From: Massilia antarctica
GTDB taxonomy: Bacteria > Pseudomonadota > Gammaproteobacteria > Burkholderiales > Burkholderiaceae_D
Length of the DNA stretch: 64,000 nucleotides
Assembly (NCBI RefSeq): GCF_015689335.1
Contig: NZ_CP065053.1
Location: forward strand, 7,254,001 to 7,318,000
Direction of reading: 5' to 3'
Shown here: in pieces, positions 33,207 through 36,344 of the stretch
How the letters are laid out: each line of letters begins with the position of its first letter
How positions within the stretch are numbered: the stretch's first letter is position 1
The notes under the pieces: model-generated
The model's input: the letters and a program-made list of their open reading frames with translations, nothing else
Databases searched by the model: none
Told to the model about the DNA's origin: nothing
Program-made: the position numbers and the translations under genes

Positions 33207-33353
33207 ATGACCCATTCTACCGACAGCAACTGCGCGCACGAGTCGACCTGCATCAAGCTTCTCAGCGGTCGAGCGCGCTACGAATTCCCGCGACGAAGCG
33301 CTGCACGGCCTCGACCGCCTGGTCCTTGGGCGTCGCCTCGATCTCCTGGATGA
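33207..33353 (+). CDS. Possible small ORF with strong ribosome site, overlapping the trpA 3' end
   Basis: 48 codons starting [19 protein letters not shown] after a very good Shine-Dalgarno (AAGGGGGAG, 7 bases before ATG). The last 30 codons are antisense to trpA, and their Arg/Pro-rich content looks like a reverse-strand shadow. It could be a real gene truncated by rearrangement at the trpA junction, or a chance frame. Two cysteines lie in the first 15 residues. No family is recognised. Confidence 0.3.
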
Positions 33354-34059
33354 TGCGGCTGCCGATCACCACGGCGTCGGCCACCTGCGCCACCGCCCTG
33401 GCGGTTTCGCCATCGCGAATCCCGAAGCCCACGCCGATGGGCAGCTTGACGTGCTCGCGGATCGGCGCCAGGCGGCGCGCCACATCGTCCACATCGATAT
33501 TGCCCGCTCCCGTGACGCCCTTGAGCGACACGTAATAGCTAAAACCGCTACCGAATTTGGCCACCTGGGCGATGCGCTCCGGGGTCGACGTGGGCGCCAG
33601 CAGGAAGATCAGATCGAGCCCGTTTGCACGCATCGCCGTGGCGAATTGCTCGCACTCCTCGGGTGGATAATCGACCACGATGGCGCCATCCGCGCCCACT
33701 TCTTTCGCCCGCGTGATGAAGGCATCGGTGCCAATGCGCTCGATCGGGTTGGCATACCCCATCAGCACCACCGGCGTGCTCTGATCCGTTTTGCGGAACT
33801 CGCGCACGAAGCCAAACACGTCGCCGATGCCGACATTGAACTTGAGCGCGCGCTCGCAGGCGCGCTGGATGACCGGCCCTTCGGCCATCGGATCGGAAAA
33901 CGGCACCCCCAGTTCGAGGACGTCGGCGCCGCCGGCAACGAGGGCGTGCATCAGCGGCACGGTCATTTCCGGACCCGGGTCGCCCGCCGTGATAAAGGTA
34001 ACGAGCGCGGTTTTTTTACTGGCCGCCAAAGCGGCAAAGGTTGGTGCGATTCTGGACAT
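33262..34059 (-). CDS. trpA: Tryptophan synthase alpha subunit
   Basis: 265 residues. The TIM-barrel active site has Glu in [17 protein letters not shown] and the Asp that follows, with GVGFGIRDG and VVIGSRII at the phosphate site. It cleaves indole-3-glycerol phosphate to indole, which passes to TrpB. It lies 63 bases after trpB in the same operon. In related genomes accD follows directly; here the xyloglucanase gene does. Confidence 0.97.
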
Positions 34060-34122: not shown

Positions 34123-35370
34123 TCAGCTGAAATCGAGTCCCATCCGCTCCGCCACCGTGTGCATGTCCTTGTCGCCGCGGCCCGACAGGTTCACCAGGAT
34201 CAGCTGGTCCTTGGGCAAGGTGGCCGCCAGCTTGGCCGCATAGGCCAGCGCGTGCGACGATTCCAGCGCCGGGATGATGCCTTCGATATGGCAGCAGTCA
34301 TGGAACGCCTGCAGCGCTTCATCGTCGGTCACCGACACGTACTGCGCCCGCCCCAGGTCCTTCAACCACGCGTGCTCCGGCCCCACGCCAGGATAATCGA
34401 GGCCCGCAGACACCGAATGCGTCTCGATGATCTGGCCGTTCTCGTCCTGCAGCAGATAGGTGCGGTTACCGTGCAACACGCCCGGAATGCCGGCCGTGAG
34501 CGACGCCGAATGCTTGCCCGAATCGAGCCCTTCGCCGGCCGCTTCCACCCCGATCAGCTTGACGTTCTTGTCGTCGATGTAAGGATAAAAAATCCCCATC
34601 GCGTTCGAGCCGCCACCGATACAGGCCAGCACGTAGTCGGGCTGGCGTCCGGTCAGTTCCGGCATCTGCACCAGGCACTCCTCGCCGATGACCGACTGGA
34701 AGTCGCGCACCATCATCGGATACGGGTGCGGACCGGCCACCGTGCCGATGATGTAGAAGGTGTTTTCGATGTTGGTGACCCAGTCGCGCATCGCTTCATT
34801 AAGCGCGTCCTTGAGCGTCTTGGAGCCCGATTCCACCGGCACCACGGTCGCACCCAGGAGCTTCATGCGGTACACATTCTGGGCTTGGCGCTTGACGTCC
34901 TCGCTGCCCATGTAGACCACACATTCGAGCCCGAAACGGGCGCAGATGGTGGCCGTAGCCACGCCGTGCTGGCCGGCGCCGGTTTCGGCGATGATGCGCG
35001 GCTTGCCCATGCGCTTGGCCAGCAGCGCCTGGCCGATCACGTTATTGATCTTGTGCGCGCCGGTGTGGTTCAAGTCTTCGCGCTTGAAGAAAATCTGCGC
35101 CCCGCCCTGCTGCTCGGACCAGCGCTTGGCGTGATAAATCGGCGAGGGACGGCCGACGAAGTGCTTGAGTTCATAGCGGAATTCGTCGAGGAACTCGGGG
35201 TCGTGGCTGTATTTGGCGTACGCCTCTTTCAGCTCGGCCAGCGCATGGCTCAGGGTTTCGGCGACAAACGAGCCGCCGTAGGGGCCAAAGTGGCCGCGCG
35301 CATCGGGCAGCTGGTAGTCGGTGGTATGGAAAATCGGGGCGGCAGGGCCGCGCGCAGGTGCGTTTTTCAT
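34123..35370 (-). CDS. trpB: Tryptophan synthase beta subunit
   Basis: 415 residues from ATG 35370; the in-frame extension up to 35472 is not family-like. The PLP lysine is in [12 protein letters not shown], with the phosphate-binding GGGSNAMG and the C-terminal SGRGDKD. It joins indole and serine to give tryptophan. The 5' region before this gene is about 310 bases and contains a candidate promoter and a Trp-Trp leader ORF, so trpBA may be regulated separately from trpF. Confidence 0.97.
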
Positions 35371-35448
35371 GGGTATGCTCGCTTTCGAAGGTGATATCGG
35401 CAGGCCGGCCGCGGCCGAGAAGGCAGCGGTCCATGGCTGGCAAAACAG

Positions 35449-35465
35449 GGGGCGTGACCAGCCCC
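35449..35465 (-). terminator. Possible attenuator hairpin upstream of trpB
   Basis: GGGGC (35465-35461 on the minus strand) pairs with GCCCC (35453-35449) around a 7-base loop, and TTTT follows 3 bases on. The stem is short, so it is weak as a terminator. Its 3' arm can alternatively pair with GGGCGT at 35489-35484, just after the Trp codons. Confidence 0.35.
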
Positions 35466-35468
35466 GCG

Positions 35469-35576
35469 TCAATCGCGTTTAGTACGCCCGAGCCACCACA
35501 CAAAACGACCCGAGGCGCGCGTTCTTTTGGAATGAGAAACCAATCGCAGCCTTTCCTGCACCACCGTGGATGTCAT
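35469..35576 (-). CDS. Candidate trp leader peptide with tandem Trp codons
   Basis: An in-frame minus-strand ORF runs from ATG 35576 to TGA at 35471-35469 (35 codons); a TTG at 35543 preceded by AGGAAAGG with 6-base spacing would give 24 codons. Near the end it reads [14 protein letters not shown], with two adjacent TGG codons at 35498-35493. It is followed by a GC hairpin and T residues before trpB. This is the layout of a Trp-responsive attenuator, but there is no comparative support in this window and the pairings are inferred. Confidence 0.4.
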
Positions 35577-35632
35577 CTGCGCGAGGGCGGAACCCCGCTG
35601 CGGGCAACTGGTAGTGCGGTATTGTTGAACGT

Positions 35633-35641
35633 ATTCTAGCA
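35633..35641 (-). promoter_or_regulatory. Extended -10 promoter element for trpBA
   Basis: TGCTAGAAT on the minus strand is a good extended -10 (TGn plus TAGAAT). Transcription would start near 35626, about 50 bases before the leader ATG and about 255 bases before trpB. No -35 hexamer is evident. Confidence 0.45.
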
Positions 35642-35643
35642 AA

Positions 35644-35668
35644 TCGGCGCCGCTTGTGGTGGCGCCGA
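35644..35668 (-). terminator. GC hairpin after trpF
   Basis: An 8-bp perfect inverted repeat (35644-35651 with 35661-35668) lies 13 bases after the trpF stop and is followed on the minus strand by ATTTG. It may end the truA-trpF transcript, although the T-run is poor. Confidence 0.5.
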
Positions 35669-35681
35669 CGCATCAGGCGAT

Positions 35682-36344
35682 TCAGGCCTGGTGATCGGCC
35701 ATCCGTACGGCAGCGCTGAAAGCGTCGATTTTGGCGGCATCCTTGATGCCCTTGGCCTGTTCGACGCCGCTGCTGATGTCGACCGCGTACGGATGCACCT
35801 GGCGCACCGCGCCGGCCACCGTGTCGACGGTCAGGCCGCCGCTCAATACCACGCGCGGGGCCAGTTCGGACGGAATCACGCTCCAGTCGAACACCTTGCC
35901 GGCGCCGCCGTAGGCGTCCACGAAGGTGTCGAGCAGCAGGCTTGAAAACAGCGGGCTGGCGGCGCGGCACAGCGCTTCTTCGGCCAGCAGGTCGGCACCC
36001 GTGGTCTCGGGACGCACGCGGAACACGCGCATGAACGGACGGCCGACGGCGGCGGCGATGGCGGCACACTGCTCCACCGTTTCATCGCCATGGAACTGCA
36101 GCTGCGCAAACGGCGCCACGGCGGCAACCGCCCTCACCTCGTCGATGCTGGCGTTGACGAACAGCGCCACCGTGGAGACGAACGGCGGCAGCGCCGACAT
36201 CAAGGCGCCGGCCTGCGCGGCCGTCACGTAGCGCGGACTTTTCGGGTAGAACACGAAGCCGAGGGCATCGGCGCCCGCGGCCACCGCCGCCTGGACGTCC
36301 TGGGGGCGGGTCAGCCCGCAAATCTTGATGCGTGTGCGTTGCAT
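35682..36344 (-). CDS. trpF: Phosphoribosylanthranilate isomerase
   Basis: 220 residues from ATG 36344 (MQRTRIKICGLTRPQDVQ); the catalytic Cys is in KICGLT and the catalytic Asp in LLLDTFVD. GFVFYPKSPRYV and LSGGLTVDTV are further TrpF signatures. It converts phosphoribosylanthranilate to the carboxyphenylamino-deoxyribulose phosphate in tryptophan synthesis. It follows truA by 10 bases and is probably co-transcribed with it, a conserved pairing. Confidence 0.96.
   Translation of the reverse strand: MQRTRIKICGLTRPQDVQAAVAAGADALGFVFYPKSPRYVTAAQAGALMSALPPFVSTVALFVNASIDEVRAVAAVAPFAQLQFHGDETVEQCAAIAAAVGRPFMRVFRVRPETTGADLLAEEALCRAASPLFSSLLLDTFVDAYGGAGKVFDWSVIPSELAPRVVLSGGLTVDTVAGAVRQVHPYAVDISSGVEQAKGIKDAAKIDAFSAAVRMADHQA

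Follow-up and report, generated by a model that had tools for sequence, protein, structure and literature searches.

The interval between trpF and trpB of Massilia antarctica quite likely holds a short tryptophan-sensing leader gene for trpBA, which in related bacteria is overprinted on trpF; the sensor role and the internal promoter are predictions and the best explanation of the comparisons described here. The first-pass annotation of this interval had proposed a Trp-Trp leader peptide and attenuator, and it had missed what the alignments indicate: the interval and the 3′ part of trpF are homologous, and the leader is written over that gene. The element is probably a tryptophan sensor, and it is real, conserved, and wider in scope than first described. 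Transcription from the promoter box, translation, the response to tryptophan, and the output step are put forward conditionally.

The leader region of the window

In the window, by which I mean the whole stretch of 64,000 nucleotides analysed, the gene order is truA-trpF-interval-trpB-trpA on the minus strand; the genome is 7.4 Mb in size. The features are as follows.

35682 to 36338, minus strand: intact trpF (PF00697) with its start codon not assigned, the copy without the embedded promoter and leader; Pfam and codon comparison
35371 to 35650, minus strand: relic, the 3′ part of an older trpF copy from the promoter box to trpB, with the TrpF frame no longer open; comparison with the genus
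35633 to 35641, minus strand: extended −10 TGCTAGAAT, the presumed trpBA promoter, with a predicted start near 35626; read in the sequence
35550 to 35557, minus strand: Shine-Dalgarno-like box AGGAAAGG, 6 nt ahead of the start codon; read in the sequence, conserved codons in relatives
35469 to 35543, minus strand: leader ORF of 24 amino acids, from TTG (35543-35541) to TGA (35471-35469); sequence, frame conserved in relatives' trpF
35493 to 35498, minus strand: tandem Trp codons TGG TGG; read in the sequence, conserved in family trpF
35449 to 35465, minus strand: GGGGC/GCCCC hairpin followed by CTGTTTT, clade-specific and of uncertain role; sequence and clade alignment
34123 to 35370, minus strand: trpB, the presumed target; ORF and domain annotation
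33262 to 34059, minus strand: trpA, the presumed co-transcribed target; ORF and domain annotation

All the pieces that had been named before (the upstream hairpin, the extended −10, the Shine-Dalgarno-like box, the TTG, the TGGTGG, the TGA, and the GGGGC/GCCCC with its T run) were found in the sequence. The two Trp codons (WW) sit about 130 nt ahead of trpB, and an upstream ATG at 35576 opens a frame of 35 amino acids. A perfect inverted repeat, TCGGCGCC..GGCGCCGA followed by TTTG, lies directly before the −10 (35644-35668, minus strand). It could be an end point for trpF transcripts; its 5′ arm is missing in three close relatives (L085-L087). No Rfam family matched at the gathering score anywhere in the window, and the leader peptide had no NCBIfam match.

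The leader is nested in trpF of relatives

In relatives, the promoter, start, WW frame, and stop seen here recur within intact trpF, out of its reading frame. The leader is the +2 frame over the TrpF motif APRVVLSGGL, and WW is a shifted reading of its SGG. The genus sample comprised 17 genomes, of which 15 were used (G011 gave no match and G013 pieces only), and in eight of these (L088-L095) the DNA of the interval is the 3′ part of an intact trpF. The family draw comprised 195 genomes, 188 with a match, and 111 loci were examined outside the genus, 18 among the matches listed and 93 picked by hand for genus spread. At 110 of the 111 loci trpF was found beside trpB, and TGGTGG is present in the second frame in all 110 (L111-L221), so that the conservation asked of the Trp codons was borne out. 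The expectation by chance, from the codon use of trpF outside the conserved islands described below, is 0.069 per genome, which is no simple probability because the genomes are related; the relatives are not independent samples. At the remaining locus (L187, genome G028) neither trpF nor a WW leader was found upstream of trpB, and a stretch resembling SRP RNA was seen there by eye.

The trait extends beyond the family. Eighty named loci (L001-L080) were taken as the best matches to the TrpB of the window, and hence lean towards relatives; trpF adjoins trpB in 75 of them and was not found to do so in the other five, as in L187. The WW frame is present in 50 of the 75, Burkholderia, Caballeronia, Trinickia, Ralstonia, Polynucleobacter, Ramlibacter, Polaromonas, Variovorax, and Limnohabitans included, and absent in 25. 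Among these named loci it was not seen in Zoogloea, Gallionella, Limnobacter, and Rhodocyclales, while Aquabacterium has it in one of two loci. A pattern search for the WW frame matched 42 of 300 genomes of the order, compared with 14 for the reversed pattern; 34 of the 42 fall in five families (10/11, 8/9, 9/9, 5/9, and 2/3 of their genomes). The same search in a draw from the class matched 3 of 184 genomes, with 8 for the control. A match in G028 was inspected and is not trpF; otherwise the counts are of pattern matches, in trpF or elsewhere, several of them at trpB loci already examined. The pattern misses the genome of the window because its Leu codon differs from the pattern.

A promoter-like box, TA[GCA]AAT, recurs at the same part of trpF: 130 of 131 sequences from the family have it, and so do 32 of 37 others, as compared with 10 of 393 and 2 of 107 control windows. 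It is also found at this place in 21 of the 25 relatives without WW (betaproteobacteria among L001-L080), which suggests that the intragenic trpBA promoter may be older and more widespread than the leader.

Selection on the nested frame

The 131 WW sequences of the family were reduced to 118 distinct trpF sequences for a codon alignment. Synonymous variation drops in two islands, at codons 115-118 (GAT TTG CTA GAA, the −10) and over most of codons 148-178, where the Shine-Dalgarno box, start, peptide, and stop lie. Within the second island codons 151, 152, 157, and 160 vary freely, and outside the islands only scattered single codons are equally low (e.g. 41, 121, 190, and 194). The trpF codons that make up the Shine-Dalgarno box are fixed in the family, GGA in 118 of 118 and AAG in 117 of 118.

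The changes counted on the tree point to selection in the phase of the WW frame. Over the rest of trpF there are 11.4, 9.3, and 30.7 changes per codon at positions 1, 2, and 3. At codons 161-172 (RASGRFxWWLE), position 2, which is the wobble position of the WW frame, has 33 changes, and position 3 has 28, of which 18 are at a single K/E codon; at codons 162-166 the counts are 16 at position 2 and 3 at position 3. Both ranges were picked after the table had been seen. Against this signal, when all 24 codons of the ORF are taken together, position 3 remains the one that changes most (means of 2.2, 3.5, and 7.9), and several of the variable sites alter the peptide (S/P, T/A/S, K/E, T/A, and K/Q). 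Around RASGRF the changes are silent in the WW frame and not silent in TrpF. In 168 of 168 WW sequences the Ser that precedes GRF is coded by TCN, and each of the four third bases occurs, while the TrpF residue at this place is R, H, Q, P, or L; these 168 sequences were selected for WW, 156 of them are distinct over this stretch, and some genomes occur twice, as named and unnamed loci. The residues R-A-S-G-R-F before WW are 95-100% conserved in the family, with the wobble bases of A, S, and G varying.

The ends of the frame are kept as well. The base before the TrpF Trp codon yields a start codon in 167 of the 168 WW sequences (165 have T, 2 have A, and 1 has C); the one with C appears to be L062, where another Trp codon gives GTG. 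In contrast, 21 of 25 such codons are preceded by C in the 25 WW-less relatives. In Polynucleobacter and Ralstonia an ATG is present at a different distance. The distance from the first Trp to the stop is nine codons in 96 of 118 sequences. Codon-phase selection of its own inside an intact gene, which is what marks an overprinted gene, was found in the core, at the start, and at the stop, but not at every codon. As judged by comparison, the promoter box, start, peptide, Trp codons, and stop are under selection; the claim of a Trp-Trp leader ORF ahead of trpBA thus gains a promoter-like box of its own and a conservation that reaches beyond the family.

Separation of trpF and the leader in the clade of the window

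Seven genomes (L081-L087), the clade of the window, have the leader piece standing alone behind a second trpF. Since there are a second trpF and a lone trpF 3′ end, a partial duplication probably separated trpF from the trpF end next to trpB, and the order of events is a reconstruction. The piece that was kept starts shortly before the −10. In L085-L087 a further gene of about 305 amino acids (about 1 kb) lies between trpF and the leader, while the leader stays with trpB; the L086 copy of this gene begins MTHADPGFGYIFCAAL and had no Pfam match at E 0.01. In the other four members trpF and trpB are 311 to 468 nt apart.

In the leader copy of the clade only 4 of 74 ungapped ORF sites are variable, two of them silent and two Ser/Thr exchanges. 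The stretch from the Shine-Dalgarno box to the start has 3 variable sites of 26 and that around the −10 has 5 of 27, whereas the spacer between the −10 and the Shine-Dalgarno box has 36 of 58, the upstream flank 23 of 32, and the sequence after the stop 16 of 20; the stretch before trpB is intermediate (19 of 65). At four-fold degenerate sites, 1 of 13 is variable in the leader and 76 of 204 in trpB (P = 0.036). It had been left open whether the TTG or an upstream ATG is the start. The downstream start is kept in all seven members, as TTG in three and as ATG in four (L083, L085, L086, and L087) through the loss of one T at the same place, while an in-frame upstream ATG exists only in L081 and L082.

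The upstream trpF copies show the complementary behaviour. In six clade members their third bases match the family consensus of the islands at 6, 5, 6, and 5 of 21 codons and, in two loci where the gene is cut by the end of the fetched stretch, at 5 and 5 of 18, though the island amino acids are kept at 17 of 21 or 15 of 18. The trpF of the window itself agrees with the consensus at 6 of 21 third bases and in the amino acid at 17 of 21. Among family members the agreement is 98.95%, a figure that is high by construction because only codons with at least 90% conservation across the family were selected. L087 was left out of this comparison, and only 3 codons outside the islands reached 90%, of which the clade matches 2-3. 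By these counts the upstream trpF has lost the special codons, and the leader copy has kept the ORF.

Two members have a rearranged GGGGC/GCCCC hairpin. L083 carries an insertion of about 155 nt with inverted ends (CTAAGTAAGTG..CACTTACTTAG) in the loop, and L087 has the GCGGGGC..GCCCC hairpin twice in tandem after the leader stop, with no T run behind either copy.

Possible mechanisms

The favoured model is as follows. A promoter lying within the 3′ part of trpF would give a transcript for trpBA, and the first frame to be read on it would be a leader some 24 codons long that includes the Trp pair. A shortage of charged tRNA-Trp would make ribosomes stall at WW and would thereby raise the expression of trpBA. 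Because no conserved terminator is present, the output is most likely something other than an intrinsic terminator; the step that I favour is Rho-dependent termination, which stalled or queued ribosomes would prevent. This output step is a guess, since neither a conserved terminator nor an RNA switch was found in relatives. A readout through Rho fits the spacing of 76-387 nt (median 153.5) between the leader stop and trpB in relatives, where the trpB starts are approximate, being taken from the positions of search matches; this RNA would go untranslated if transcription began at the internal promoter. As for base composition, the first 80 nt or so past the leader stop have more G than C in most relatives, and C exceeds G only from about +120 on, in 63-91% of relatives and in windows reaching into trpB. 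At the trpB start of the M. antarctica stretch the value is 0.22 against a 95th percentile of 0.244 for 35 likely genes of the window, which is high yet within the spread. Some points count against the model: TTG is a weak start codon, on transcripts initiated upstream, ribosomes translating trpF would run through the leader, and RASGRF is conserved more than a plain codon-stall sensor would seem to need. The amino-acid conservation of R-A-S-G-R-F before WW leaves room for an effect of the nascent chain. The fuller reading, that the second frame of trpF is a leader which several Burkholderiales families share and which senses tryptophan on behalf of trpBA by a nascent-chain stall or one coupled to Rho, and not by a hairpin switch, is put forward tentatively, at a little less than an even chance. 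If so, LSGGL in the enzyme and RFxWWL in the sensor would be motifs that constrain each other.

A classical attenuator, as first proposed, in which stalling at WW would decide between an antiterminator and an intrinsic terminator ahead of trpB, seems quite unlikely. It draws on the clade of the window, where GGGGC/GCCCC is followed by TTTT in four of seven members, an alternative GGGCGT/ACGCCC helix can form, and the hairpin arms are nearly invariant with a variable loop. However, the T run is absent in L083 and L087 and short in L085, and the two alternative hairpins turned out to belong to this clade, since both helices are complete in none of 111 relatives with an intact trpF. Terminator-like sites occur in 3 of 118 relatives, where 6.4 would be expected from shuffles keeping base composition only; 701 bases of the window, both strands counted, have four such sites (0.5 in shuffles), GGGGC/GCCCC among them. 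The geometry also appears to be reversed. With a ribosome footprint of about 15 nt, a ribosome stalled on WW would sit over GGGCGT and let the terminator form in starvation, which is the wrong direction. On the counts of 0/111 and 3/118 the intrinsic-terminator switch was rejected. The arms have been kept despite the loop insertion in L083 and the tandem copy in L087, and hence the hairpin may have a local role. Two other folds were tried and dropped. A hairpin around the Trp codons, CGTTTT/AAAACG, has all its pairs in 79 of 111 relatives (95% of cells), with one pair broken by C in 45 of 168 sequences. A downstream RNAalifold hairpin over GTCGACATC..GGTGTCGA was set aside because a GGC codon breaks one pair in about half of the family (GGT 60, GGC 58) and the leader copy of the clade lacks it.

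That the peptide itself matters, as a nascent-chain arrest peptide or as a small basic protein acting in trans, is unlikely but deserves more weight than the terminator switch. The near-invariant R-A-S-G-R-F with its free wobble bases speaks for it, and there is a precedent in Sinorhizobium, for which a trans-acting tryptophan leader peptide is described in the excerpted text of PMC7298713. On the other side, the location ahead of trpBA, the tandem Trp codons, and the promoter box fit control in cis with no role for the peptide. I regard it as very improbable that the conserved stretch is a protein-binding site or an RNA fold which is open in the WW frame by accident: the long invariant stretch of the clade does include wobble bases (12 of 13 four-fold sites unchanged), but no conserved fold was found among the relatives, and the codon-phase signal and the conservation of start and stop codons speak against it. 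It is hardly credible that the interval is a decaying trpF fragment with a WW frame arising by chance. It is a trpF relic, and WW is a shifted reading of a TrpF motif; nevertheless, the ORF is under selection both in the relic and in intact trpF, and the rate contrast within the clade (4/74 versus 36/58) contradicts decay.

Comparison with known systems

Searches for attenuators usually look between genes, and this element sits inside a coding sequence. It presents a case of two overlapping bacterial frames that are both strongly selected in many genera, and the separation in seven genomes lets each function be seen alone. It also proposes a route for the separate tuning of tryptophan synthase in bacteria that, like this one, have trpE and trpBA at separate places. 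No leader inside trpF is described among the open-access matches listed, nor in the excerpted texts of PMC10110911, PMC5688073, and PMC2965389; the excerpt of PMC10110911 does list a "Tryptophan leader peptide", with a locus tag that is remote from trpB.

The comparison is made here with four kinds of system. Ribosome-mediated attenuators of the trpL type have a short leader ORF with tandem Trp codons, a Shine-Dalgarno sequence, and a promoter of their own ahead of the trp structural genes. The present element likewise has a short ORF with tandem Trp codons, a Shine-Dalgarno box, and a start ahead of trp structural genes. However, it precedes trpB and not trpE, it is nested out of frame in the trpF of relatives, and it has no conserved terminator or antiterminator and no Rfam match in the window. 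It is not classed as a trpL-type attenuator, since two defining features of that type were looked for in relatives and were lacking. The same genome has a Trp-rich leader, MFFIKKHNVTQTGSIEAWLWRRWQSWAK, upstream of trpE (L222; G000:C1 near 2698600, minus strand), followed by CTGTCGGC..GCCGGCAG-GTTTTTT, as seen by eye. This looks like a conventional attenuator with a terminator-like hairpin and a T run. Both are Trp-rich leaders ahead of trp genes, but the trpE leader is free-standing, and no sequence resemblance between the two was noticed.

TnaC is a leader peptide that works with Rho-dependent termination and responds to excess tryptophan in a catabolic operon. The likeness lies in a short Trp-containing leader, where the position of the ribosome could control Rho without an intrinsic terminator; the logic must, however, be the opposite here, and the role of Rho is hypothetical. 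Overprinted bacterial genes, in which a new frame is written over an older gene, are described in the excerpted texts of PMC4683798 and PMC2268670, and the trpF leader resembles them in this respect. It differs in that the new frame resembles a leader that regulates the genes behind it, is conserved in several families, and has been naturally separated from the older gene in seven genomes.
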